Assembly (NCBI RefSeq): GCF_900110555.1
Contig: NZ_FOEE01000001.1
Location: forward strand, 1-64,000
Direction: 5' to 3'
DNA length: 64,000 nt
From: Trujillonella endophytica
Lineage (GTDB): Bacteria > Actinomycetota > Actinomycetes > Mycobacteriales > Geodermatophilaceae
The translations under genes and the position numbers were made by a program. The notes beneath the pieces are model-generated. The model was not told where the DNA came from and made no database searches. It saw nothing but the letters and a program-made list of their open reading frames with translations. Positions 35,673 to 48,457 of this stretch are shown in pieces (the first letter of the stretch is position 1; each line of letters begins with the position of its first letter).

Positions 35673-38600
35673 CTAGCCCTGGTTCTGGCCCCGCCGGCGC
35701 ACCATCTCCGCGATCCGGACGGGCGCGAACGGCGACGTGCCGTCGGCCGGGGTGCCCCGGTCGCCCACAGCCGGAGCGCCGGGTGCCGGTCGCCCCGCGC
35801 CGCCCAGGCGGACGAGGCGGTCCCCGGGGGCGGCCACCGCGTCGTCGTGGGTCACGCAGACCACGACCCGGCCGGCCAGCGCCTCGCGCAGGTCGCGCAC
35901 GAGCGCGGCGGCGGTCGGCGGGTCGAGGTGCGCGGTCGGCTCGTCGAGGAGGACGACGTCGCGGTCGGCCAGCATCGCCCGCGCCGCGGCCAGCCGCCGC
36001 CGCTCCCCACCGGAGAGCGCGGTGCCACCGGCGCCGACCGGGGTGTCGAGGCCGTCCGGCAGCGACGCGAGCAGGCCTCCGAGGCCGGCTGCGATCAGTG
36101 CCGCGCGCATCCGCGCCTCCCCGGCCGGCCCGGCCAGCTCCCCGCGCGGGGCCGCCAGCGCCAGGTTGGCGCGGATCGTCGAGGAGAAGACGTGCGCCTC
36201 CTGCGGCAGCCAGGCCAGCCGGGAGCGGACGGCGTCGCCGGTGAGGTGCGCGGTGTCGACGTCGGCCATCGCGTAGCGCCCGGTCCGGGGACGCAGCGCG
36301 GCCATGAGGACGGCCAGCAGCGTCGACTTGCCCGAGCCCGAGGGCCCGCGCACGACCAGCCACCCGCCGTCGGCGGCGGCCGCGGCGTCCAGGCCGCGGA
36401 GCACGTCGGGGCCGCCGGGCCACCCGGCGCGCAGCGACGCCACGGTCACCTCCCGCACCGGGGCCGGCGCGGGCCGGGGATCGGTCGGGTCGGCGGGCAC
36501 CGGTGCGGTCAGCACCGCGTCCAGGCGGCGGTGGGCGTCGGTCAGCGCGCCCCGGCGCTGCAGCGCTCCGACCAGGCCGCCGAGCGGGTCGGCCAGGGCC
36601 AGCGGGGCGAGGGCGAGCACGGCGAGCGTCGGCCCCTCGACCCCGGCGGAGGCCCCGACGGCCGTTGCGGCGACCGCGGCGACGCCGGTACCCAGGCCGA
36701 TCAGCGCGGTGCCGAGCGCGGCGGCGCGGCTCGCGGTGGCCGACGCGCGCCCGCGGCTGCGCCCGACGGCGGCCAGGACGGTCGCGGTGCGCGCGGCCAG
36801 GCCGTGGGCGCGCAGGTCCGCGGCCCCGGCCAGCAGCGTCGTCGCGTCGCGCAGGGCCGCCACCCGGAGCTCGCCCTCGGTCCGGGCCGCACCGGCGTCC
36901 ACCCGGCGGTGCGCGGCGAGCACGCCGGCGACGGCGAGCCCGAGGACGGCGGCCGCGGCGGCCGCGGCGGCGGGGGAGAGCAGCGCCATCGCGGCGAGCG
37001 TGCCGGCGGTGACGGTCCCGGCCACCAGCGCCGGCGGGAGCACCCGCACCGACAGGTCCTGCACCAGGCCGACGTCGCCGACGACACGGGCCAGGGCCGT
37101 GCCCGGCGTCCGATCGGCGGCGATGCCCTGCGCGGCCAGGGCCCGCCACACCCGGACCCGCAGACTCGCGGCCTGCCGGAGCGCCGCGTCGTGCGCGGAC
37201 ATCCGCTCCAGCCAGCGCAGCAGGGCGCGGCCGATGCCGAAGAAGCGGACGCCGACGATCGCGACCATCAGCGTCAGGATCGGCGGCATCTCCGCGGCCC
37301 GGACGATCAGGTAGCCCGACACCGCGGTCAGCGCGACCCCCGCGCCGGACGACGCGGTGCCGGCCAGCACCGCCCGGAGCAGTGCCCGCCGCGGCCACCC
37401 CGCTGCGCGTCCCTCCCCGCCGAGATCGGCGATCTCGGCGGGATGAGCGGCGGATGCCGCCGAGATCGCCGATCTCGGCGGAGCAGAGGCAGCGGGAGAG
37501 GCGGGGAACGGCGGGGCAGCGGGAGAGGCGGGGGACGGCGGGGGAGCGGCCTCGGCGGCGGCGGCGGTGGCGGCGGCGGGCGGGGCGGGCAGCTCCACCG
37601 TCCGGTCGGCCAGGGTGGCGAGCGCCGGGTCGTGGGTCACCAGCAGCGCGGTCACGGCGCCGCGCAGCGAGGCCAGGACCGCGGCGACCCGATCGGTGGC
37701 GGCGGCGTCCAGGTGGGCGGTCGGCTCGTCGAGCAGCAGCAGCCGGGCACCGCGGCGCACCCGCACCAGCGCCCGGGCCAGCGCCACCCGCTGGAGCTCG
37801 CCGGGCGAGAGCGTCTCGCAGGCCCGCCCGGCCAGCCCGCTCGCGCCGACCCTGGCCAGCGCCTCGACGACGTAGGCCTCCGCGACCAGCTCGTCGACCC
37901 CCGGCTCGGCGCCCGCGTGCCGGCGCAGCTCGTCGGCGACGGTGGGGCCGGTCGTGCGCGGGTGCTGCGGCACCCAGGCCACGGCCCCCGCGGGCACGCC
38001 GGAGACCGTGCCGCCGACGGTCGCGGACGGCGGCAGCACCCCGGCCAGGGCGGCCAGCAGCGTGGACTTGCCCGATCCGCTGCGGCCGGCCAGCGCGACC
38101 AGCTCGCCGGGGCGCACCTCGAGGTCGACCGGCGGCAGGGCCGGGACGCCGCGGCCCGGGTGGTGCACGGCCAGCCCGCGGACGGCGACGTCGGCGCCGC
38201 GGGGGTCGTCGTCGGGGCCTGCCGCGGTGAGCACCGCCGGACCGTCGTCCGCGGCGAGCACCGCGCGCGCCTCCGCGGCGGCCAGCGTCGCCGCCTCGTT
38301 GGCGTGGTGCGCCGCGCCCAGCGCGCGCAGCGGGGCGAACGCCTCCGGGGCGAGCAGCAGCGCGGTGAGGGCCACCGTGAGCGGCAGGTCTCCGTGCACG
38401 AGTCGCAGGCCGGCGGTGACCGCGACCAGCGCCACCGACAGGGTGGCGATGAGCTCCAGCACCAGCGAGGAGAGGAACGCCAGCCGCAGCGTGGCCAGGG
38501 TCCGCCGCCGGGCCGCGTCGCCCAGCTCGGCCAGCGCGTGCGCCTGCTCCGCGGCGCGGCCCAGCCCGACGAGCACGGGCAGGCCGCGGACCAGCTCGGC

Positions 38601-39221
38601 CACGTGCGCGGCGATCCGGTCCAGGGCGCGGGCCGACGCCGTCGTCCCGTCCCGGGTGGTGAGCCCGACGAGGACCATGAACAGCGGCACCAGCGGCAGC
38701 GTGACCGCGACCAGCACCGCTGACAGCAGGTCGGTGGCCGCGAGCACGACCAGCAGCGCCGGGGGGACGACGAGCGTGGAGGCGAGCGCCGGCAGGTACG
38801 TCGCGAGCCCCGGCGCGAGGTCGGCCAGCCGGGTGGTGGCCAGCACGGCGGCCGGCCCGGCGCCCCCGGCGGCCTCGACGGCGGCGGGGGAGACGGCCAG
38901 TCGCGCCAGCAGGCGCTCGCGCAACTGCTCCTCGGCGCGCCGGGCGTCCCGGGCGGCCAGCAGGTCGCCGACCGCCCCGGCGCCTGCCCGCAGCGCCGCA
39001 CCGGCCGCGGCCGCGGCCAGCGGCGGCAGCACCGCGCCCTCGGCGTACCCCGCGGCCCGGCCGACGGCGTGCGCGAGCCCGGCGGCCAGCAGCACCAGCC
39101 CCGCCGCCTGCGCGAGGGCGGCCAGCGCCGACCGGACCAGCGTGCCGCGGAGCCCCGGCACCCCGTCGAGCGCCGCCAGCGGCCCGCGGGCGGGGCCCGT
39201 CGCACGGGGGACGCCGCTCAT
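35673..39221 (-). CDS. cydDC: Fused CydD-CydC ABC exporter for cytochrome bd assembly
   Basis: 1182 residues with two complete exporter halves in one chain. The first half has a six-helix membrane domain, Walker A GRSGSGKST near 382, signature LSPGELQRV near 470 and Walker B LLLLDEPTAHLD near 495. A linker (~550-610) precedes the second half, with Walker A GPSGSGKST near 962, signature LSGGERRRLAAAR near 1070 and Walker B VVLLDEPTAHLD near 1087. CydDC exports thiols and heme-related reductants needed to assemble cytochrome bd. The ATG overlaps the cydB stop (ATGA). Fusion is common in actinobacteria. The linker DNA carries two 25-base palindromes, described separately. Confidence 0.94.
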   Translation of the reverse strand: MSGVPRATGPARGPLAALDGVPGLRGTLVRSALAALAQAAGLVLLAAGLAHAVGRAAGYAEGAVLPPLAAAAAGAALRAGAGAVGDLLAARDARRAEEQLRERLLARLAVSPAAVEAAGGAGPAAVLATTRLADLAPGLATYLPALASTLVVPPALLVVLAATDLLSAVLVAVTLPLVPLFMVLVGLTTRDGTTASARALDRIAAHVAELVRGLPVLVGLGRAAEQAHALAELGDAARRRTLATLRLAFLSSLVLELIATLSVALVAVTAGLRLVHGDLPLTVALTALLLAPEAFAPLRALGAAHHANEAATLAAAEARAVLAADDGPAVLTAAGPDDDPRGADVAVRGLAVHHPGRGVPALPPVDLEVRPGELVALAGRSGSGKSTLLAALAGVLPPSATVGGTVSGVPAGAVAWVPQHPRTTGPTVADELRRHAGAEPGVDELVAEAYVVEALARVGASGLAGRACETLSPGELQRVALARALVRVRRGARLLLLDEPTAHLDAAATDRVAAVLASLRGAVTALLVTHDPALATLADRTVELPAPPAAATAAAAEAAPPPSPASPAAPPFPASPAASAPPRSAISAASAAHPAEIADLGGEGRAAGWPRRALLRAVLAGTASSGAGVALTAVSGYLIVRAAEMPPILTLMVAIVGVRFFGIGRALLRWLERMSAHDAALRQAASLRVRVWRALAAQGIAADRTPGTALARVVGDVGLVQDLSVRVLPPALVAGTVTAGTLAAMALLSPAAAAAAAAVLGLAVAGVLAAHRRVDAGAARTEGELRVAALRDATTLLAGAADLRAHGLAARTATVLAAVGRSRGRASATASRAAALGTALIGLGTGVAAVAATAVGASAGVEGPTLAVLALAPLALADPLGGLVGALQRRGALTDAHRRLDAVLTAPVPADPTDPRPAPAPVREVTVASLRAGWPGGPDVLRGLDAAAAADGGWLVVRGPSGSGKSTLLAVLMAALRPRTGRYAMADVDTAHLTGDAVRSRLAWLPQEAHVFSSTIRANLALAAPRGELAGPAGEARMRAALIAAGLGGLLASLPDGLDTPVGAGGTALSGGERRRLAAARAMLADRDVVLLDEPTAHLDPPTAAALVRDLREALAGRVVVCVTHDDAVAAPGDRLVRLGGAGRPAPGAPAVGDRGTPADGTSPFAPVRIAEMVRRRGQNQG
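37417..37481. repeat. Twin 25-base palindromes inside the cydDC linker
   Basis: CCGCCGAGATC-GGC-GATCTCGGCGG (37417-37441) and the same arms with a GCC loop (37457-37481) are each perfect 11-bp inverted repeats. They are 15 bases apart, and each is the exact reverse complement of the other. They encode ISAASAAHPAEIADLGG in the linker between the two ABC halves. Confidence 0.8.
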
Positions 39222-40288
39222 GCCGGCACCTGCGCCCCGCCCGCGTCGTCGGCGTGCCGTGGCTCGGTGGGCTGGGGCTGGGTGGGCTGTGGCTCGGCGT
39301 GCTGCGGCTCGGCGCTCAGCCGCTTCCGGAACACCCAGTAGGTCCAGGCCTGGTAGCCGAGCACGACCGGGAGCCCGATCCCGGCCGCCCACGTCATGAC
39401 GGTGAGCGTGTAGTCGCTGACCGAGGCGTCGGCGAGGGTGACGTCGAAGGCGGCGTCGATCGTCGACGGGACGACGACGGGGTAGGCGGCCGCGAAGATC
39501 GTCGCGGCCGCGGCGACGAGCATCGCGCCCCACGCGGCGAACGCCTGCCCCTCGCGGCCCGCCCTGAGCCGCGCCCAGGCGGCGACGACCGAGAGCGCGG
39601 CGACCAGCCAGAGCACCGCGGTCGCCGGAGTGCCGTGGCGCAGGTGCACGATCGCGGCCCAGGCCAGCAGGGGCAGCGCGGCCACCGGCGCCCAGCGCAG
39701 CGCGAAGGCGTGCGCCGCGACCCGGATCGGCCCGTCGGTCTTGAGTGCCAGGAACACCGCGCCGTGCACCGTCGAGAACGCCAGCACCGACACCGCGCCC
39801 AGCAGCGCCGGCCAGCCCAGCCCGGCGAACGGGCCGCCGACCCGGTTGCCGTCGGCGTCGATCGGCAGGCCCAGCGTGGTGGCGCCGAGTGCCGCGCCGA
39901 TGCCGAGGGCCGCGACCAGGGAGCCGACGGTGATGACCGTCGTCCAGGTGTCGTCCCACCGCTCGGTGTGGTGGGAGTGCCGCCACTCGAAGGCGACCGC
40001 CCGGACGATCAGCCCGAACAGCACCAGCACGAACGGCAGGTACAGCGCCGGCAGCCAGGTGGCGTACCAGCCGGGGAAGGCCGCGAACACGGCGCCGGCG
40101 GCGGTGATCAGCCACACCTCGTTGCCGTCCCAGAGCGGTCCGATCGTGCGGAGCATGACGTGCCGGTCGGCCCGCCGGCGCCCGAGGACGGGCAGCAGCG
40201 CAGCCACCCCGAAGTCGAAGCCCTCCAGCAGGAGGAAGCCGATCCAGAGCACGGCGACGGCGGCGAACCAGACGGTCTGCAGGTCCAT
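39218..40288 (-). CDS. cydB: Cytochrome bd ubiquinol/menaquinol oxidase, subunit II
   Basis: 356 residues with eight or nine transmembrane helices. LQTVWFAAVAVLWIGFLLLEGFDFGVAALLPVLGR is the invariant N-terminal helix with the GFDFG motif, and RTIGPLWDGNEVWLITAAGAVFAAFP follows it. It forms the heterodimer with CydA and carries no heme itself. The C terminus has a Pro/Gln-rich repeat tail (EPQHAEPQPTQPQPTEPRH). The ATG at 40288 begins MDLQTVW; longer in-frame extensions are Arg-rich and not conserved. It lies 14 bases downstream of cydA and overlaps cydDC. Confidence 0.96.
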   Translation of the reverse strand: MDLQTVWFAAVAVLWIGFLLLEGFDFGVAALLPVLGRRRADRHVMLRTIGPLWDGNEVWLITAAGAVFAAFPGWYATWLPALYLPFVLVLFGLIVRAVAFEWRHSHHTERWDDTWTTVITVGSLVAALGIGAALGATTLGLPIDADGNRVGGPFAGLGWPALLGAVSVLAFSTVHGAVFLALKTDGPIRVAAHAFALRWAPVAALPLLAWAAIVHLRHGTPATAVLWLVAALSVVAAWARLRAGREGQAFAAWGAMLVAAAATIFAAAYPVVVPSTIDAAFDVTLADASVSDYTLTVMTWAAGIGLPVVLGYQAWTYWVFRKRLSAEPQHAEPQPTQPQPTEPRHADDAGGAQVPA

Positions 40289-40302
40289 GGTGGGTACCCC
40301 GA

Positions 40303-41862
40303 TCAGTACGCGAAGGAGAGGACGTCGTCGCGGTCGCGACCGGCGGCACCGTCGTCGTCCGGTGTGCCCTCGGGCGGCGAGCCGGGCGTGGGCGTGCCGT
40401 CCCCGGTCGTGACGCCACGGCGGACGAAGCGGGTGATCAGCCACAACTCGATCACCGCGAGCACGCCGTAGACCAGCGTCAGCCCGATCAGGGAGGTCCA
40501 CACCTCACCGGTGCTGATGCCGGGGGAGACGGCCTGGGCGGTGAAGAAGTAGACCTGCTCGCCCACCGGCACGTCGGGATTCGGGTAGACGACGAAGGGC
40601 TGGCGGCCCATCTCGGTGAAGATCCAGCCGGTGGCGTTGGCCACGAACGGCGCGGCGACGGCGAGCAGCGCGCCGTACACGCCGATCCGCGAGGTCGGCA
40701 CGCGTCCCCTCCGGGTCGCCCACAACGCGTAGGCGGCGACCGCGGCGGAGACCAGGCCCATGCCGATCATCAGCCGGAAGCTCCAGTAGGTGACCGCCAG
40801 CAGGGGGCTGTAGTCGATCCGGCCGCCGGCGTTCTCGCCGAACGACGGGTCGTCGGGGTAGGTCTCGCCGTAGAGGGCCGCGTACTCCTCCTGCAGCTCG
40901 TTCACGCCGGGCACGGCGGACTCGAAGTCGCTGTGCGCGAGGAACGACAGCAGGCCCGGCACGGTCCACGAGTGGACGTCGTCGCACTCGTTGGAGCCCA
41001 GCTTGCCGAAGGCGAAGATCGAGAAGGGCGCCGGCGCCTCGGTCTCGCACAGCGCCTCGGCCGAGCTCATCTTCAGCGGCTGCTGGGCGTACATGAGCTT
41101 GGCCTGCCAGTCGCCGGTGACGGCCACGAGCACGAAGGCGGCCAGCGACACGAACCCGCCGAGCCGGACCGAGCGGCGCCACACCCCGTGATCGACCTCG
41201 CCGGTCGGCCGCCCGGCCAGCTTCCGCTTGCGCAGGTGCCACAGGCCGATCCCCACGAGCAGGGCCCCGGCGACCATGAGGGCGGCGACGATCGCGTGGC
41301 TGAAGGCCGCCAGCGCCGTGTTGTTGGTGAGGACGGCGAGGAAGTCGACCTGCACGGGCCGGCCGTCCGCGCCCACCTCGACGCCGACCGGGTGCTGCAT
41401 CCAGGAGTTCGCGGCGATGATGAAGTAGGCGCTGACGATCGAGCCGATCACCGCGGCCCACAGCGCCGCCAGGTGCAGCTTCTTCGGGATCCGGCCCCAG
41501 CCGAAGATCCACAGGCCGAGGAACGTCGACTCCAGGAAGAAGGCCAGCAGCGCCTCGAGCGCCAGCAGCGAGCCGAAGACGTCGCCGACGAAGCGCGAGT
41601 ACTCGCTCCAGGCCAGGCCGAACTGGAACTCCTGGACGAGGCCGGTGGCCACGCCGAGGGCGAAGTTGATGAGGTAGATGCGACCCCAGAAGCGGGTCAT
41701 GCGCAGCCATTCCGGCTTGTCGGTGCGCACCCACATCGTGTGCATGATCGCGACCAGGATCCCCAGACCGATGGTCAGCGGGACCATCAGGAAGTGGTAG
41801 ACGGTCGTGATCCCGAACTGCCAGCGGGCCACGTCCAGCGTGTCCAGCGCCACCACGTCCAC
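40303..41862 (-). CDS. cydA: Cytochrome bd oxidase, subunit I
   Basis: 519 residues; reduces O2 with quinol without pumping protons, and has high O2 affinity. Heme ligands are His in TVYHFLMVPLTIG (~23), His in AAFSHAIVAALMV (~187) and Met in TEMGRQPFVVYPN (~420). SRFVGDVFGSLLALEALLAFFLEST contains the acidic residues of the proton channel. A periplasmic quinol-binding loop (~250-350) includes the Cys-containing SNECDDVHSW. The operon cydA-cydB-cydDC reads leftward. The 110-base region shared with divergent blaI contains two perfect BlaI-like operators, so repression by that regulator is likely. Confidence 0.97.
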   Translation of the reverse strand: MDVVALDTLDVARWQFGITTVYHFLMVPLTIGLGILVAIMHTMWVRTDKPEWLRMTRFWGRIYLINFALGVATGLVQEFQFGLAWSEYSRFVGDVFGSLLALEALLAFFLESTFLGLWIFGWGRIPKKLHLAALWAAVIGSIVSAYFIIAANSWMQHPVGVEVGADGRPVQVDFLAVLTNNTALAAFSHAIVAALMVAGALLVGIGLWHLRKRKLAGRPTGEVDHGVWRRSVRLGGFVSLAAFVLVAVTGDWQAKLMYAQQPLKMSSAEALCETEAPAPFSIFAFGKLGSNECDDVHSWTVPGLLSFLAHSDFESAVPGVNELQEEYAALYGETYPDDPSFGENAGGRIDYSPLLAVTYWSFRLMIGMGLVSAAVAAYALWATRRGRVPTSRIGVYGALLAVAAPFVANATGWIFTEMGRQPFVVYPNPDVPVGEQVYFFTAQAVSPGISTGEVWTSLIGLTLVYGVLAVIELWLITRFVRRGVTTGDGTPTPGSPPEGTPDDDGAAGRDRDDVLSFAY

Positions 41863-41897
41863 CGGGGCTCCTCTTCTCGGTCGATGCGACGTATTCT

Positions 41898-41938
41898 TTC
41901 TACGTCACGTAGAAGACAAAGTTCTACGACACGTAGAA
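41898..41938. promoter_or_regulatory. Two BlaI-type operators between cydA and blaI
   Basis: TTCTACGTCACGTAGAA (41898-41914) and TTCTACGACACGTAGAA (41922-41938) are both perfect 7-bp inverted repeats with 3-base centres, spaced 24 bases centre to centre. The CTAC/GTAG half-sites resemble BlaI/MecI operators. The first lies 36 bases from the cydA start and the second 35 bases from blaI. Confidence 0.82.
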
Positions 41939-41972
41939 GAAGCGGCTGTGAGATGCCGGACAGGAGCGGTGG

Positions 41973-42347
41973 ATGGCCTCGCTGGGCGACCTGGAGCGCG
42001 TCGTCATGGACCACCTGTGGTCCGCCGACGGGCCGCTGGCGGCGACCGACCTGCGCGACGCCCTGGCCGATCGCGGCCTGGCGCTGACGACCGTGCACAC
42101 GGTGCTCGGGCGGCTGCAGCAGAAGGGCTTCGTCACGCACGACGAGGCCCGCCCGCGCCGCTTCCGGCCGACCGCCGGCCGCGCGGAGCACGCCGCCGGG
42201 CTCATGCACGAGGTGCTCGGTCAGGCCGCCGACCGGCAGGCGGTGCTGGCCCGGTTCGTCGGCAGCGTCGACGCCGAGGAGGCCGCGCTGCTGCGCCGGC
42301 TGCTCGACGGCCCCGCCCCCGGGGTCGGGTCGCCCCCGCCGGCCTGA
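41973..42347 (+). CDS. BlaI/MecI/CopY family repressor
   Basis: 124 residues. SLGDLERVVMDHLWSADGPLAATDLRDALADRGLALTTVHTVLGRLQQKGFVTHDEARPRRFRPT is the complete winged helix of the family. The C-terminal dimerisation helices follow (GLMHEVLGQAADRQAVLARFVGSVDAEEAALLRRLL), ending in a short Pro-rich tail. In relatives a membrane peptidase cleaves the repressor on a signal; such a peptidase gene follows directly. AGGAG lies 6 bases before the ATG. It should bind the twin operators and so control itself and cytochrome bd. Confidence 0.92.
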   Translation: MASLGDLERVVMDHLWSADGPLAATDLRDALADRGLALTTVHTVLGRLQQKGFVTHDEARPRRFRPTAGRAEHAAGLMHEVLGQAADRQAVLARFVGSVDAEEAALLRRLLDGPAPGVGSPPPA

Positions 42348-42348
42348 C

Positions 42349-43281
42349 GTGCTGCCCGCGACGGCGGCCGCGCTCGCCGTGCTGGCCGCCCTGCTGGCGT
42401 GGCCGGTGCCGGCGCTGCTCGGCCGCGCCCGCTGGCCTCGGCGCGATCCGCTCGCCGCGCTCGTCTGCTGGCAGGCCATCGGCCTCGCCGGCGGCCTGTC
42501 GATCATCGGTGCGCTGCTGGTGCACGGGCTCGCGCCGTGGGGCCACTCCCTGCCGGAGGCCACCTGGCACGTGCTGACCGGGGAGCCGGCCACCGGGGAG
42601 GTCCGCGGCGACCACTGGGTCACCCTCACCCTCGCCGGCGCCCTGGCCGCGGAGCTGCTCGGCGTGCTCGCGCTCTCCTGGTGGCGGACCGCGCGGACCC
42701 GCCGCCGCCACCGCGCGCTGCTCGAGGTCGTCGTCCGCCCGGCGGCCGCCGTCCCCGACGCGCGGCTGCTCGACACCCCCGCCCCGGTGGCCTTCTGCAT
42801 CCCCGGCGCCCGGCCGCTGCTGGTGCTGTCGGCCGGCATGGTCGCCGAGCTCGACGACGCCCAGCTCGCCGCCGTCGTCGCCCACGAGCGGGCCCACCTG
42901 CGCGAGCACCACCACCTCTACCTGTTGCCGTTCGTGGCCTGGGAGGCGGCGCTGCCGGTGCTGCCCGCCGCGGCCCGCGCGCACGCCGCGGTACGCACGC
43001 TGGTCGAGATGCGGGCCGACGACGTCGCGCTCGCCGCGGTGCCGGGTCCCGACCCGCGGCGGACGCTGGCGCGGGCGATCGTCGCCGCGGGCGCGTCGGG
43101 CGGGGGCGGGGTGCCCACCGGGGCGCTCGCGGCCGGCGGCGGTGCGGTCACCGCGCGGGTGCGCCGGCTGCTGGGGCCCGCGGCGCCGCTGCCGCCCGCC
43201 GTCCGGGCCGCCGTGCTCGCCGCCGCCGGGCTGCTGCTCGCCGTTCCGACGGCGCTGCTGCTGCTCCCCGCCGTCGCGTAG
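42349..43281 (+). CDS. M56/M48-type BlaR1-like membrane zinc peptidase
   Basis: 310 residues with hydrophobic helices at about 5-22, 38-60, 88-108 and at the C terminus. The zinc motif is VVAHERAHLREHHH (HExxH near 179), and the third ligand Glu is probably in LVEMRADDVALAA. Unlike BlaR1 it lacks a large external sensor domain, as is usual for actinobacterial partners of BlaI. It begins one base after the blaI stop. It probably cleaves or signals to that repressor; the inducing signal is unknown. Confidence 0.88.
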   Translation: MLPATAAALAVLAALLAWPVPALLGRARWPRRDPLAALVCWQAIGLAGGLSIIGALLVHGLAPWGHSLPEATWHVLTGEPATGEVRGDHWVTLTLAGALAAELLGVLALSWWRTARTRRRHRALLEVVVRPAAAVPDARLLDTPAPVAFCIPGARPLLVLSAGMVAELDDAQLAAVVAHERAHLREHHHLYLLPFVAWEAALPVLPAAARAHAAVRTLVEMRADDVALAAVPGPDPRRTLARAIVAAGASGGGGVPTGALAAGGGAVTARVRRLLGPAAPLPPAVRAAVLAAAGLLLAVPTALLLLPAVA

Positions 43282-43416: not shown

Positions 43417-44306
43417 CTAGGCCGACAGCGCGGCGGGGAGGTCGACGCCGGTGAGCTCGGCGGACGCGGCCCACAGCCGGGCGGCGAGCTCCGGGTCGCT
43501 GGCGGCGGGCGTCCGGCCGACCAGCGTGGGCGCGCCCCGGGTCTCGCCGAGGCGGCTGGGGCCCGCGTAGCCGCCGCCGGGGAGGTCCACCGTCGCGGCG
43601 AACAGCGTGGGCAGCGCCCCCTGCTCGCTGCTGGTGGCGACCACCCGGTTGGCCACGCCCATGACCGCGTTCCAGGTGCGGTTGCCGGTGTTGCCCTGCA
43701 GGTTGGTCGCCGAGTAGCCGGGGTGCGCGGCCAGCGCCCGCACCCGGGACCCCGCCGCGGTCAGCCGCAGCTGCAGGGTCAGCGTGAACAGCAGGTTGGC
43801 GAGCTTGGAGGCGGAGTAGGCGGCCATGGGGGAGTAGGGCCGGGTGCGCCAGTGCAGGTCGTCGACGTCGAGGCCGCCGGCCCGGTGGGTCGCCGAGGAG
43901 ACGGTGACGACGCGGTCGGTCACGTGCGGCAGCAGCAGGTTCGTGAGGGCGAACGGGCCGAGGTGGTTGGTGCCGATGTGCCGCTCGAACCCGTCGACGG
44001 TCTCGCCGGCCGGCACCCACATGACACCGGCGTTGTTCACCAGCACGTCCAGGGGACCGCTCCAGCCGGCGGCGAAGTCGCGCACCGAGGCGAGGTCGGC
44101 CAGGTCGAGGCGGCGGACCTCCGTCGAGCCGGGCAGCCCGGCCGCCGCCGACTCGCCCTTCGCGACGTCGCGCACGGCCAGCACGACGTGCGCTCCCGCG
44201 GCGGCCAGGGCGCGGGCGGTCTCCAGCCCCAGACCGCTGTTGGCGCCGGTGACGACCGCGGTGCGGCCGGCCTGCGAGGGGATGTCGGCCGTCGTCCAGG
44301 AGGTCG

Positions 44307-44310
<4 letters not shown>
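43417..44310 (-). CDS. SDR oxidoreductase, retinol-dehydrogenase-like
   Basis: 297 residues. [30 protein letters not shown] is the NADP-type cofactor loop. [33 protein letters not shown] and the catalytic YSASKLAN follow. The overall pattern is that of the WWOX/retinol-dehydrogenase-like SDRs common in actinobacteria, with no defined substrate. Its ATG overlaps the copA stop as ATGA, so it may be translated with the copper operon. TACGCT also sits 8 bases before the start, so it could have its own leaderless transcript. Confidence 0.9.
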
Positions 44311-46599
<2,289 letters not shown>

Positions 46600-46607
<8 letters not shown>

Positions 46608-47502
46608 GGGACACCTCCACGGTGAACTCCGCGGTGCGGACGACGTCGCCGTGCCGGAAGTCGAGGAACAGCCGGTGGGTGCCGGCGGCGGGGGGAGTGG
46701 TGGCGAAGACGACGTGCGGACCGGGCTCGGGCGCCGCGCCGGGCACCGCCTCGACCGGGTGCACGTGCAGGTAGCCGAGGTCGGCGGCGCGCAGCACCAC
46801 GAGGTGTCCGTAGGCGCCGAGGTAGGGCTGGAGGTCGGTCACCGGCACGCCGTCGCGGCTCACGCTCAGGGTCAGCTCGCTCTCCACGCCGGCGGTCAGG
46901 GACCCGGTCAGGACGACGGTGTACCCGTCGACCTCCGCGACGGCCGCGGGCGGCGGCAGCTCCTGCGGGACGAACTCGCCCGGGACCGACAGGTCGGCGC
47001 CCAGCGTCAGCGCCTCCCCGAGGGCCGTGGGCGTGGTGTCGGCGACGACCCGCCAGCTGCCGGGGGAGAGGTCGAGGGGAACGCTCCAGGTGCCGTCGGG
47101 CGAGGGCTCGGGGTGCACGTGCTGGTACCCGCTGAGGTCCCGGCGGACGGCGACGAGGTGCAGGTCCTCGTCGTGGACGACGTCGAAGGCGGTGACCGGC
47201 GCGCCGTCGGGGCCGAGCACGCGGAAGGCGAGGACCGCGCGCCCCGCGGGCAGGACGTCGTCGACCAGGTCGAGGGTGTGCCCGGAGGCGCTGACCGCCA
47301 GGCCGCCGACGCCGGGGTCGGCCGTCGTGGTCTCCGGGTCGGGAGTCGCGGCGTGCTCCTCGTCGACGTGCCCGCCGTCGGCGTGCTCGGCGGGTGCCGG
47401 CTCGGCGTCCACCGGGCCGACCGCCGCGCCCACGCCCACGCTGGCGCCGAACACGGCGGCCAGCCCCAGGGCGAAGGCGGCGACCTTGGCGGGGGTGTTC
47501 AC
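46600..47502 (-). CDS. Secreted protein of the copper operon with repeated YxHVHP motif
   Basis: 300 residues, family not named. A signal peptide ([23 protein letters not shown]) is followed by a His/Glu/Asp-rich linker ([18 protein letters not shown]). Two beta-rich repeats follow: one with [31 protein letters not shown], the other with [25 protein letters not shown]. The duplicated Y-x-HVHP motif, plus His in each preceding strand, would suit metal binding. It sits between copZ (7 bases) and copA (overlap), so it probably binds or delivers copper outside the membrane. Similar proteins are annotated only as hypothetical or heavy-metal-binding. Confidence 0.8.
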
Positions 47503-47509
47503 GGCGGGG

Positions 47510-47719
47510 TCAGCGCCCGGCCAGCTGGTACCCGGCCTCCTCGACGGCGGCGGCCACGGCGGCCTCGTCGATCGGGGTCTGGCTGGTGACGGTGACGGCG
47601 CCGGTGGGCAGGTCCACCGAGACCGCGGTGACGCCGGGCAGGTCGCCGACCTCCTCGGACACCGCGGAGACGCAGTGGCCGCAGGTCATGCCGGTGACGG
47701 TGAAGGTGCTGGTGGTCAT
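47510..47719 (-). CDS. copZ: Copper chaperone, HMA domain
   Basis: 69 residues, one ferredoxin-like heavy-metal domain. FTVTGMTCGHCVSAVSEEVGDLPGV contains the Cu+-binding CxxC (GMTCGHC). It carries Cu+ in the cytoplasm to CopA and may load CsoR. It lies 28 bases downstream of csoR and 7 upstream of the secreted-protein gene, in the same operon. The start ATG follows a weak purine run (GGAGCGACGACC). Confidence 0.95.
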   Translation of the reverse strand: MTTSTFTVTGMTCGHCVSAVSEEVGDLPGVTAVSVDLPTGAVTVTSQTPIDEAAVAAAVEEAGYQLAGR

Positions 47720-47747
47720 GGTCGTCGCTCCAGGCGGGGGTTCGGGG

Positions 47748-48053
47748 TCAGCTGCGGACGAGGCGGGCGATGGCGGCCGAGGCTTCGCGGACCTTCTCCT
47801 CGGCCTCGGGGCCGCCGGCCTGCGCCGCGGCGACGACGCAGTGCGACATGTGCTCCTCGAGCAGGCCCAGGGCCACCGATTGCAGGGCGCTGGTCATGGC
47901 CGAGACCTGGGTGAGGATGTCGATGCAGTACTTCTCGTCCTCGACCATCCGCTGCAGGCCGCGGGCCTGGCCCTCGATGCGGCGCAGACGCTTGAGGTAG
48001 TCGTCCTTGCGGGAGATGTACCCGTGGGGGGCGTGCGCCGTGCCGTCGTCCAT
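47748..48053 (-). CDS. csoR: CsoR-type copper-sensing repressor
   Basis: 101 residues of the all-helical CsoR/RcnR fold. YISRKDDYLKRLRRIEGQARGLQRMVEDEKYCIDILTQVSAM carries the first Cu+ ligand (Cys), and LLEEHMSHCVVAAA carries the His and second Cys, so the C-H-C site is complete. Cu+ binding releases it from DNA. The ATG at 48053 lies 6 bases after TATGCT, and that hexamer is part of the operator at 48061-48081, so the protein represses its own leaderless promoter and the cop genes behind it. Confidence 0.95.
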   Translation of the reverse strand: MDDGTAHAPHGYISRKDDYLKRLRRIEGQARGLQRMVEDEKYCIDILTQVSAMTSALQSVALGLLEEHMSHCVVAAAQAGGPEAEEKVREASAAIARLVRS

Positions 48054-48060
48054 GTGCTGA

Positions 48061-48081
48061 GCATACCCCCAACGGGTATGC
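48061..48081. promoter_or_regulatory. CsoR operator
   Basis: GCATACCC-N5-GGGTATGC, a perfect 8-bp inverted repeat of the usual ATACCC/GGGTAT CsoR type. It overlaps the -10 hexamer TATGCT of csoR. Confidence 0.87.
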
Positions 48082-48085
48082 GCGG

Positions 48086-48457
48086 TCAGCCCCCGTCGCG
48101 CCGGGGCCGGTCCGACCGCAGCCGGTCGAGGATGCCCTGGAGCCGCGCCGTGGCGGCCCGTGCGTCGGCGAGCTCGTCCTCGAGGCCGGTGATGACCTCG
48201 GCCGAGGCGAGCGAGTGCCCCTCGTCGAGCAGGGCGCGCAGCCGCGCGGCGAGGGCGAGCTGCACCCGGGAGTAGCGGCGGTGCCCGCCGGGGGAGCGGT
48301 GCGGCTGCAGGACGCCGGAGCCGTCCAGGCTGCGCAGGAAGGCGGCCTGCACCCCCAGCAGGTCGGCGGCCTGGCTCATCGTGAGGGCGGGGAAGTCGGG
48401 GTCGTCGAGCCGGCGCAGCGGATCGCCCGGGCCTGGATCGCCGTGGCTGGTGCTCAC
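48086..48457 (-). CDS. MerR family regulator next to Hsp20
   Basis: 123 residues. LTMSQAADLLGVQAAFLRSLDGSGVLQPHRSPGGHRRYSRVQLALAARLRALLDEGHSLASAEVI is the MerR winged helix with the HRRYS wing. A coiled-coil (ELADARAATARLQGILDRL) ends it, without a ligand domain, as in HspR-like short members. The GTG at 48457 has GAGGAGGGAG just upstream. It is 96 bases downstream of hsp20 in the same direction, with a strong hairpin between. A role in heat-shock control is inferred from position. Confidence 0.87.
   Translation of the reverse strand: MSTSHGDPGPGDPLRRLDDPDFPALTMSQAADLLGVQAAFLRSLDGSGVLQPHRSPGGHRRYSRVQLALAARLRALLDEGHSLASAEVITGLEDELADARAATARLQGILDRLRSDRPRRDGG

Follow-up and report, generated by a model that had tools for sequence, protein, structure and literature searches.

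The window analysed here, a stretch of 64,000 nucleotides from Trujillonella endophytica, carries a cytochrome bd locus that lies back to back with the genes for a BlaI-type repressor and a membrane protease. By direct reading, the GTG start of cydA lies at 41862 on the minus strand and the ATG start of blaI at 41973 on the plus strand; the divergent gap is thus exactly 41863–41972, or 110 bp. The features of the locus are listed below.

35673–39200 (limits approximate), minus strand: fused cydD-cydC ABC exporter, named by eye and by the similarity of relatives
39218–40438, minus strand: cydB (start uncertain), cytochrome bd subunit II (PF02322, E 7.4e-91; TIGR00203 above cut-off)
40303–41862, minus strand: cydA, cytochrome bd subunit I, the presumed target (PF01654, Cyt_bd_oxida_I, E 5.6e-151)
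41892–41897, plus strand: TATTCT, a possible -10 element of the blaI promoter that abuts operator 1, suggested by aligned upstream regions
41898–41914, no strand assigned: operator 1, TTCTACGTCACGTAGAA (arms TTCTACG and CGTAGAA, centre TCA), read directly and kept in relatives
41922–41938, no strand assigned: operator 2, TTCTACGACACGTAGAA (same arms, centre ACA), read directly and kept in relatives
41973–42347, plus strand: blaI, Penicillinase_R repressor, 124 aa (PF03965, E 2.6e-19)
42349–43281, plus strand: M56/M48-type membrane metalloprotease, 310 aa, HERAH at residues 179–183, no C-terminal sensor domain

The blaI product matches PF03965 over residues 4–112 (70.1 bits against a cut-off of 22.6), the winged-helix domain making up most of the protein, and a sequence search of the PDB returns 2g9w as its sole match (E 7.5e-22, residues 3–124), an entry which we take to be Rv1846c. 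The protease behind it had been called an M56 peptidase in an earlier sequence-only reading of this DNA; an HEXXH membrane protease does stand beside blaI, its membrane topology being judged from the sequence, but Peptidase_M48 (7.7e-9) scores better than M56 (2e-5) and the M56 match, at 24.4 bits, falls under the Pfam cut-off of 31. On the other side of the gap, cydD and cydC apparently form one fused reading frame, open for about 1175 codons and running in the same direction as cydAB. Past the protease, the minus strand of 43417–48100 holds an SDR gene, a copper-type P-ATPase gene (copA), a gene for a 300-aa protein without a Pfam match and a CsoR-like gene named by eye.

The two perfect 17-bp palindromes that had been claimed for the cydA/blaI gap are confirmed by direct reading: their 7-bp arms are flawless, their centres differ by one base and the spacing from operator 1 to operator 2 is 24 bp. 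At up to three mismatches, the window contains five strand-matches, four of which are operators 1 and 2 read on both strands, against 0.09 matches per window expected from 100 dinucleotide shuffles. The exact pattern TTCTACGNNNCGTAGAA occurs in the 4.87-Mb genome at operators 1 and 2 only. One mismatch adds a single site (C13:130476), flanked by the genes for a peptidase M23 and an alcohol dehydrogenase; at this threshold, one site likewise turns up for the reversed control pattern, and the C13:130476 site is not shared by two genomes of the same genus, the third site of each being a different sequence. As regards promoters, a strict sigma-70 scan found none, while alignment of upstream regions shows that many relatives have a -10-like TACKAT motif on the blaI strand, about 10–15 bp ahead of operator 1. 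Past operator 2 and before blaI begins, a TGTGA...GGACAGG element (window 41945–41968) is strongly kept in the group of loci with 24-bp spacing; it may represent a -10 element with a ribosome site, or the site of another regulator.

A BlaI search of 59 genomes, the window's included, gave a match in 46. Thirty of the loci (L007–L036) comprise 26 close orthologues (at least 66% identity, window included), all of which have cydA divergent, the protease gene behind blaI and two sites at up to two mismatches; among the other four, L034 has a distant cydA. In 76 genomes of the family, a close cydA (at least 81% identity) is found in 60 and a close protease (at least 69%) in the same 60, as judged by reading the two tables against each other, with adjacency checked at the loci that were read; the remaining 16 have neither, and nine of these are less than 90% complete. 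The operator, at up to one mismatch, is present in 65 of the 76 genomes, namely all 60 with the gene pair and five of the 16 without it. Since the 76 genomes hold 136 such sites against 24 for the reversed control, single one-mismatch sites outside the locus are at about chance level.

The same arrangement extends beyond the family. From a scan of named genomes, the best 80 of at least 521 BlaI relatives, ranked by BlaI similarity, were kept; they consist of 60 Geodermatophilaceae-type loci (two titled otherwise) and 20 from Micrococcales, including Microbacterium, Cryobacterium, Agromyces, Arthrobacter (presumably a member of Micrococcales), Sediminivirga and others, and they come in part from the same genomes as the 26 orthologues. 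The closest named BlaI among the matches listed is that of Blastococcus endophyticus, at 92%. One record titled Bacillus sp. AZ43 (L121, UNVERIFIED_ORG) carries a Geodermatophilaceae-type locus with a BlaI identity of 79% and is probably a mislabelled genome. Every one of the 80 loci combines divergent cydA with a protease gene and one or more operators (up to two mismatches), and a cydDC match lies beside cydB in most of them; as these are the best of at least 521 by BlaI similarity, the figure of 80 out of 80 describes one BlaI clade and not BlaI at large. Two sites are present in 58 loci, three in 19 and one in three; where there are two or three, the first two lie 18–26 bp apart in 76 of 77 cases, the one other pair being at 43. 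Arm positions 2, 3 and 13–16 are identical in 176 of 176 sites, an invariance partly built in, as sites were picked by motif match at up to two mismatches. The proposed link of BlaI-type operators and a BlaI/membrane-protease pair to cytochrome bd is thereby supported: far from being absent where relatives keep the gene pair, the palindromes persist together with it.

This raises the question as to whether the palindrome belongs to BlaI or to the cyd genes; a palindrome of cyd alone should not follow blaI elsewhere, and the reverse. Among 40 wider regions at the level of the order, picked for diversity, cydA is near blaI in eight, six of them divergent and two arranged as blaI-protease-cydAB operons; five of the eight have a site at up to two mismatches, while the two operon forms and L074 have one only at 3–4. 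The other 32 blaI loci lack cydA, and a site at up to two mismatches nevertheless lies upstream of blaI in 15 of them and is missing in 17; a mycobacterial-type blaI locus (L079) has its best site at four mismatches. Conversely, nine second copies of cydA in family genomes (L185–L193; those covered are 42–45% identical) have neither an operator nor blaI within about 1 kb in any case. The presence of the motif before 15 of 32 cydA-free blaI genes and its absence from the nine second cydA copies make it very probably the operator of BlaI, binding of which is predicted from these comparisons.

A scan for tandem operators in 394 genomes of the class, requiring two palindromes and no gene, retrieved 20 genomes, two of them from the window's family (window included), against none for the reversed control. 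Nineteen of the 20 loci adjoin cydA, and 13 of these also adjoin blaI and the protease gene. The remaining six, all in a family designated f32, have cydA but no blaI in a flank of up to 1.5 kb (one lies on a short contig), and in the twentieth (L184) the operator pair lies behind a protease gene, not before blaI, with no cydA. Both observations would suit another regulator, such as a redox repressor, owning the palindromes with blaI as a bystander. Yet all six genomes with blaI-less tandem loci possess a strong blaI elsewhere, which makes control in trans likely, and neither the sites before blaI genes without cyd neighbours nor the site-free second cydA copies, which have no blaI beside them, fit such an owner; this explanation is therefore very improbable. 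Still less credible is the idea that the palindromes are RNA hairpins or an attenuator and not protein sites: a simple scan does call operator 2 terminator-like on the cydA strand, but the nearly invariant arms (with the selection effect noted above) and the regular 18–26-bp spacing of the first two copies speak against it. In a tree of repressors and proteases, cyd-linked pairs fall on several branches and include divergent and operon forms; Geodermatophilaceae-type and Micrococcales pairs group together with a support of 0.97, and L074, a divergent pair of another family, groups at 0.996 with two mycobacterial-type pairs (L081 and presumably L079).

The protease bears on what the repressor might respond to. 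In all 79 callable named relatives (L115, the one other of the 80, lies near a contig end and is uncallable), it is 250–331 aa long and has an HEXXH motif, and the distance from HEXXH to the C-terminus is 85–154 residues in 40 wider relatives. None of the 79 has room for a penicillin-binding sensor domain of the BlaR1 type, and the window protein has no Pfam match to such a domain; lacking this defining domain, the protease-repressor pair is not a BlaR1 beta-lactam sensor. Sensor-less BlaR-like proteases are common among the actinobacterial genomes sampled. Residues invariant in an alignment of 34 proteases include Cys150, His179, Glu180, His183, His188, Glu220, Asp224 and Asp225. Cys150, in the AYCLPG motif before HEXXH, was considered as a cyd-specific redox switch and rejected, as it is also present in 32 of the 40 wider relatives, the mycobacterial-type one included.

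In the window's genus, the exact operator set is limited to cyd and blaI itself; evidence on haem and copper thus comes from other families, whose BlaI proteins are about 50–60% identical. In three of them, genes with the motif include hemE, hemQ, ctaB, ctaC, ctaE, SURF1, CopC/CopD and those for flavohaemoglobin, alongside unrelated genes. The 28 genomes of f32 contain 108 exact sites against four for the control. Besides the tandem sites, 28 were annotated there (eight loci plus 20 picked from those listed), and 18 of these lie at cydA (three), hemE (eight, in L216, L219, L224, L254, L261, L264, L270 and L272, each a different genome), CopC (five), ctaE (one) and a gene for a TlpA-like thioredoxin (one). 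The ten others adjoin genes for a pyridine-nucleotide flavoprotein, two FAD monooxygenases, two SnoaL proteins and, once each, abhydrolase/TetR, a lipoprotein, glyoxalase, ParAB and a tRNA synthetase. Some f32 sites fall inside a called frame and yet before its Pfam domain, which probably places the true start deeper in that frame; at sites with a gene diverging on each side, the target may be one or the other.

The 30 genomes of two further families, f18 and f51, yield 57 exact sites, as compared with nine for the control. One f18 genome (G640) has 15, of which 14 were annotated: six adjoin hemQ, CopD, SURF1, TlpA-like, ctaC and ctaB (heme o synthase) genes and a seventh adjoins blaI, while the other eight adjoin an isocitrate lyase gene, an HTH/ABC pair, CarD, a nucleotidyl transferase gene, a pyridoxamine-oxidase-like gene, DUF6112, a gene without a Pfam match and L294, which was left unscanned. 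Six oxidase-type sites in 15 correspond to a binomial probability of about 3e-7 at a gene rate of 2%, a rate and a class that were both set after the genes had been seen. Five of the eight sites of another f18 genome (G324) were fetched and lie at HemQ-type, flavohaemoglobin, YceI and pyridoxamine-oxidase-like genes and one gene without assignment; in f51, the operator is found at a flavohaemoglobin gene in G626 and at a cydDC-like exporter gene in G422. Flavohaemoglobin genes of two families (L303:253-1410 and L279:1601-2761) start about 100 bp from the same operator; the presence of such genes at the operator hints at nitric oxide as a signal. Three kinds of gene without a known respiratory role occur twice at the operator, namely those for FAD_binding_3 monooxygenases (L255, L262), SnoaL-like proteins (L257, L267) and pyridoxamine-oxidase-like proteins (L297, L306). 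The commonest theme among targets in the other families is the oxidase, its haem and its copper; it is not the sole theme, and it counts against the oxidase-based reading given below that in f32 ten of the 28 sites annotated, and in G640 eight of the 15, do not adjoin evident oxidase genes.

Taken together, the locus probably encodes a proteolytic BlaI switch that would derepress cytochrome bd when the haem-copper oxidase branch fails. Two BlaI dimers, bound to the two operators about two helical turns apart, would block both divergent promoters and so shut off cydAB(DC) as well as the blaI-protease pair. Once activated, the membrane protease would cleave or otherwise inactivate BlaI, and cytochrome bd, which needs no copper, would be made. 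As removal of BlaI would also lead to synthesis of blaI and the protease, the switch would reset itself. The protease would most likely be activated when the haem-copper (aa3) oxidase branch fails or runs short, with an over-reduced quinone pool, a lack of haem or copper, and nitric oxide as candidate triggers. Comparative evidence supports the operators, their link to blaI and cyd (strongly as regards this target link) and the wider operator sets elsewhere; repression, proteolysis and above all the signal are what we infer, release by proteolysis being modelled on BlaR1. The operator targets in other families argue for failure of the haem-copper branch as the signal, which is the weak step of the scheme.

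The same switch could in principle answer to other signals. The sequence-only reading had favoured cell-wall damage or a beta-lactam, to which the named relatives BlaI/BlaR1 do respond, and the lone one-mismatch site elsewhere in the genome adjoins a gene of the peptidase M23 family, which includes wall hydrolases. However, this M23 site differs from the third site of both same-genus genomes and is matched by one site of the reversed control, exact operators are confined to the cydA-blaI gap in the window genome, none of the 79 callable proteases could accommodate the sensor domain, and genes for oxidase, haem and copper functions are frequent among the targets in other families; a wall signal thus appears unlikely, and this part of the earlier proposal is not upheld. 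In its favour, cydAB and blaI-blaR both rose in Mycobacterium tuberculosis exposed to amoxicillin-clavulanate, according to PMC5473688; atpC, atpG and atpH fell in the same treatment, which counts against one common release of BlaI. Somewhat less improbable, albeit still doubtful, is that BlaI, as owner of the operators, responds to too much or too little copper per se, in connection with the copA-CsoR cluster next to the locus. It would agree with copA in the fetched flank of about 6 kb at 33 of the 60 Geodermatophilaceae-type loci, with CopC/CopD genes carrying the operator in two other families and with the copper-responsive CopY being a member of the superfamily. Against it, copA adjoins none of the 20 Micrococcales loci and is absent from 25 of the 58 family loci for which 4 kb or more of downstream sequence was available, hemE, hemQ and flavohaemoglobin genes are also targets, and copA of the window has no exact operator; the neighbouring cluster, kept in only part of the family, was accordingly rejected as the source of the signal. 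If a copper shortage took effect via the oxidase, this rival would become part of the preferred reading, in which failure of the haem-copper branch is sensed.

In a broader generalisation, which could just as well prove wrong as right, sensor-less BlaI-protease pairs across Actinomycetes would watch over the haem-copper oxidase: failure of aa3 would lead to removal of BlaI and turn on the copper-free bd oxidase, and wider regulons would add haem synthesis (hemE, hemQ), copper supply (CopC, CopD), oxidase subunits and assembly (ctaB, ctaC, ctaE, SURF1, TlpA-like) and nitric-oxide removal (flavohaemoglobin), the antibiotic control of blaC being a side branch. If true, this would explain how such bacteria exchange an oxidase that depends on copper for one that does not need it. 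The annotation "BlaI" need not mean antibiotic resistance. At the present locus, a sensor-less BlaR-like system has a single clear target and an operator of defined sequence, and elsewhere this operator marks genes of oxidase assembly, haem and copper, which makes the question directly testable.

By comparison with known systems, the locus shares with staphylococcal BlaI/BlaR1 and MecI/MecR1 a repressor and a membrane HEXXH protease, palindromic operators in a divergent gap and autoregulation. Unlike the window protease, BlaR1 and MecR1 carry a penicillin-binding sensor domain, and their operator core, TACA-N2-TGTA in staphylococci, has one base fewer between TAC and GTA than the TAC-N5-GTA of the window. 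CopY belongs to the same winged-helix superfamily and has a TAC...GTA operator core, whereas CopY systems are not known to have a partner protease. Rex and other redox regulators likewise place cytochrome bd under the control of respiratory state, but belong to another family with another sensed ligand and another operator.

Another close counterpart is M. tuberculosis BlaI (Rv1846c) with BlaR (Rv1845c), in that 2g9w is the only PDB match, the protease is sensor-less and respiratory targets (cytochrome bd, ATP synthase) are reported. The respiratory precedent that had been cited for mycobacterial BlaI is real: binding of BlaI to the cytochrome bd and ATP synthase promoters is stated in an eLife 2017 paper (PMC5473688) citing Sala 2009, so that M. 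tuberculosis already provides a published case of BlaI at cytochrome bd. The same paper also describes mycobacterial BlaR as a protease without an extracellular sensor, whose response to beta-lactams it calls unknown; control of blaC by M. tuberculosis BlaI is likewise described in the literature. In a copper-starved M. tuberculosis sigC mutant, cyd and atp genes were higher and blaI was among the raised regulators (PMC7924339); this pattern is consistent with BlaI release, while the authors give other reasons for it. The mycobacterial-type blaI-protease pair at L079, so classed from its 6PGD neighbour, has no cyd neighbour, whereas the window has its blaI back to back with cydA, to which it seems to be dedicated. 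Among the matches listed in the open-access literature, no paper evidently deals with a BlaI-protease pair that governs cytochrome bd, oxidase assembly or haem genes in bacteria other than mycobacteria. As far as this literature was searched, what the locus adds to the mycobacterial system is thus a dedicated divergent blaI-protease/cyd module in Geodermatophilaceae and Micrococcales together with its operator, and a set of haem-copper oxidase genes that carry this operator in other families.
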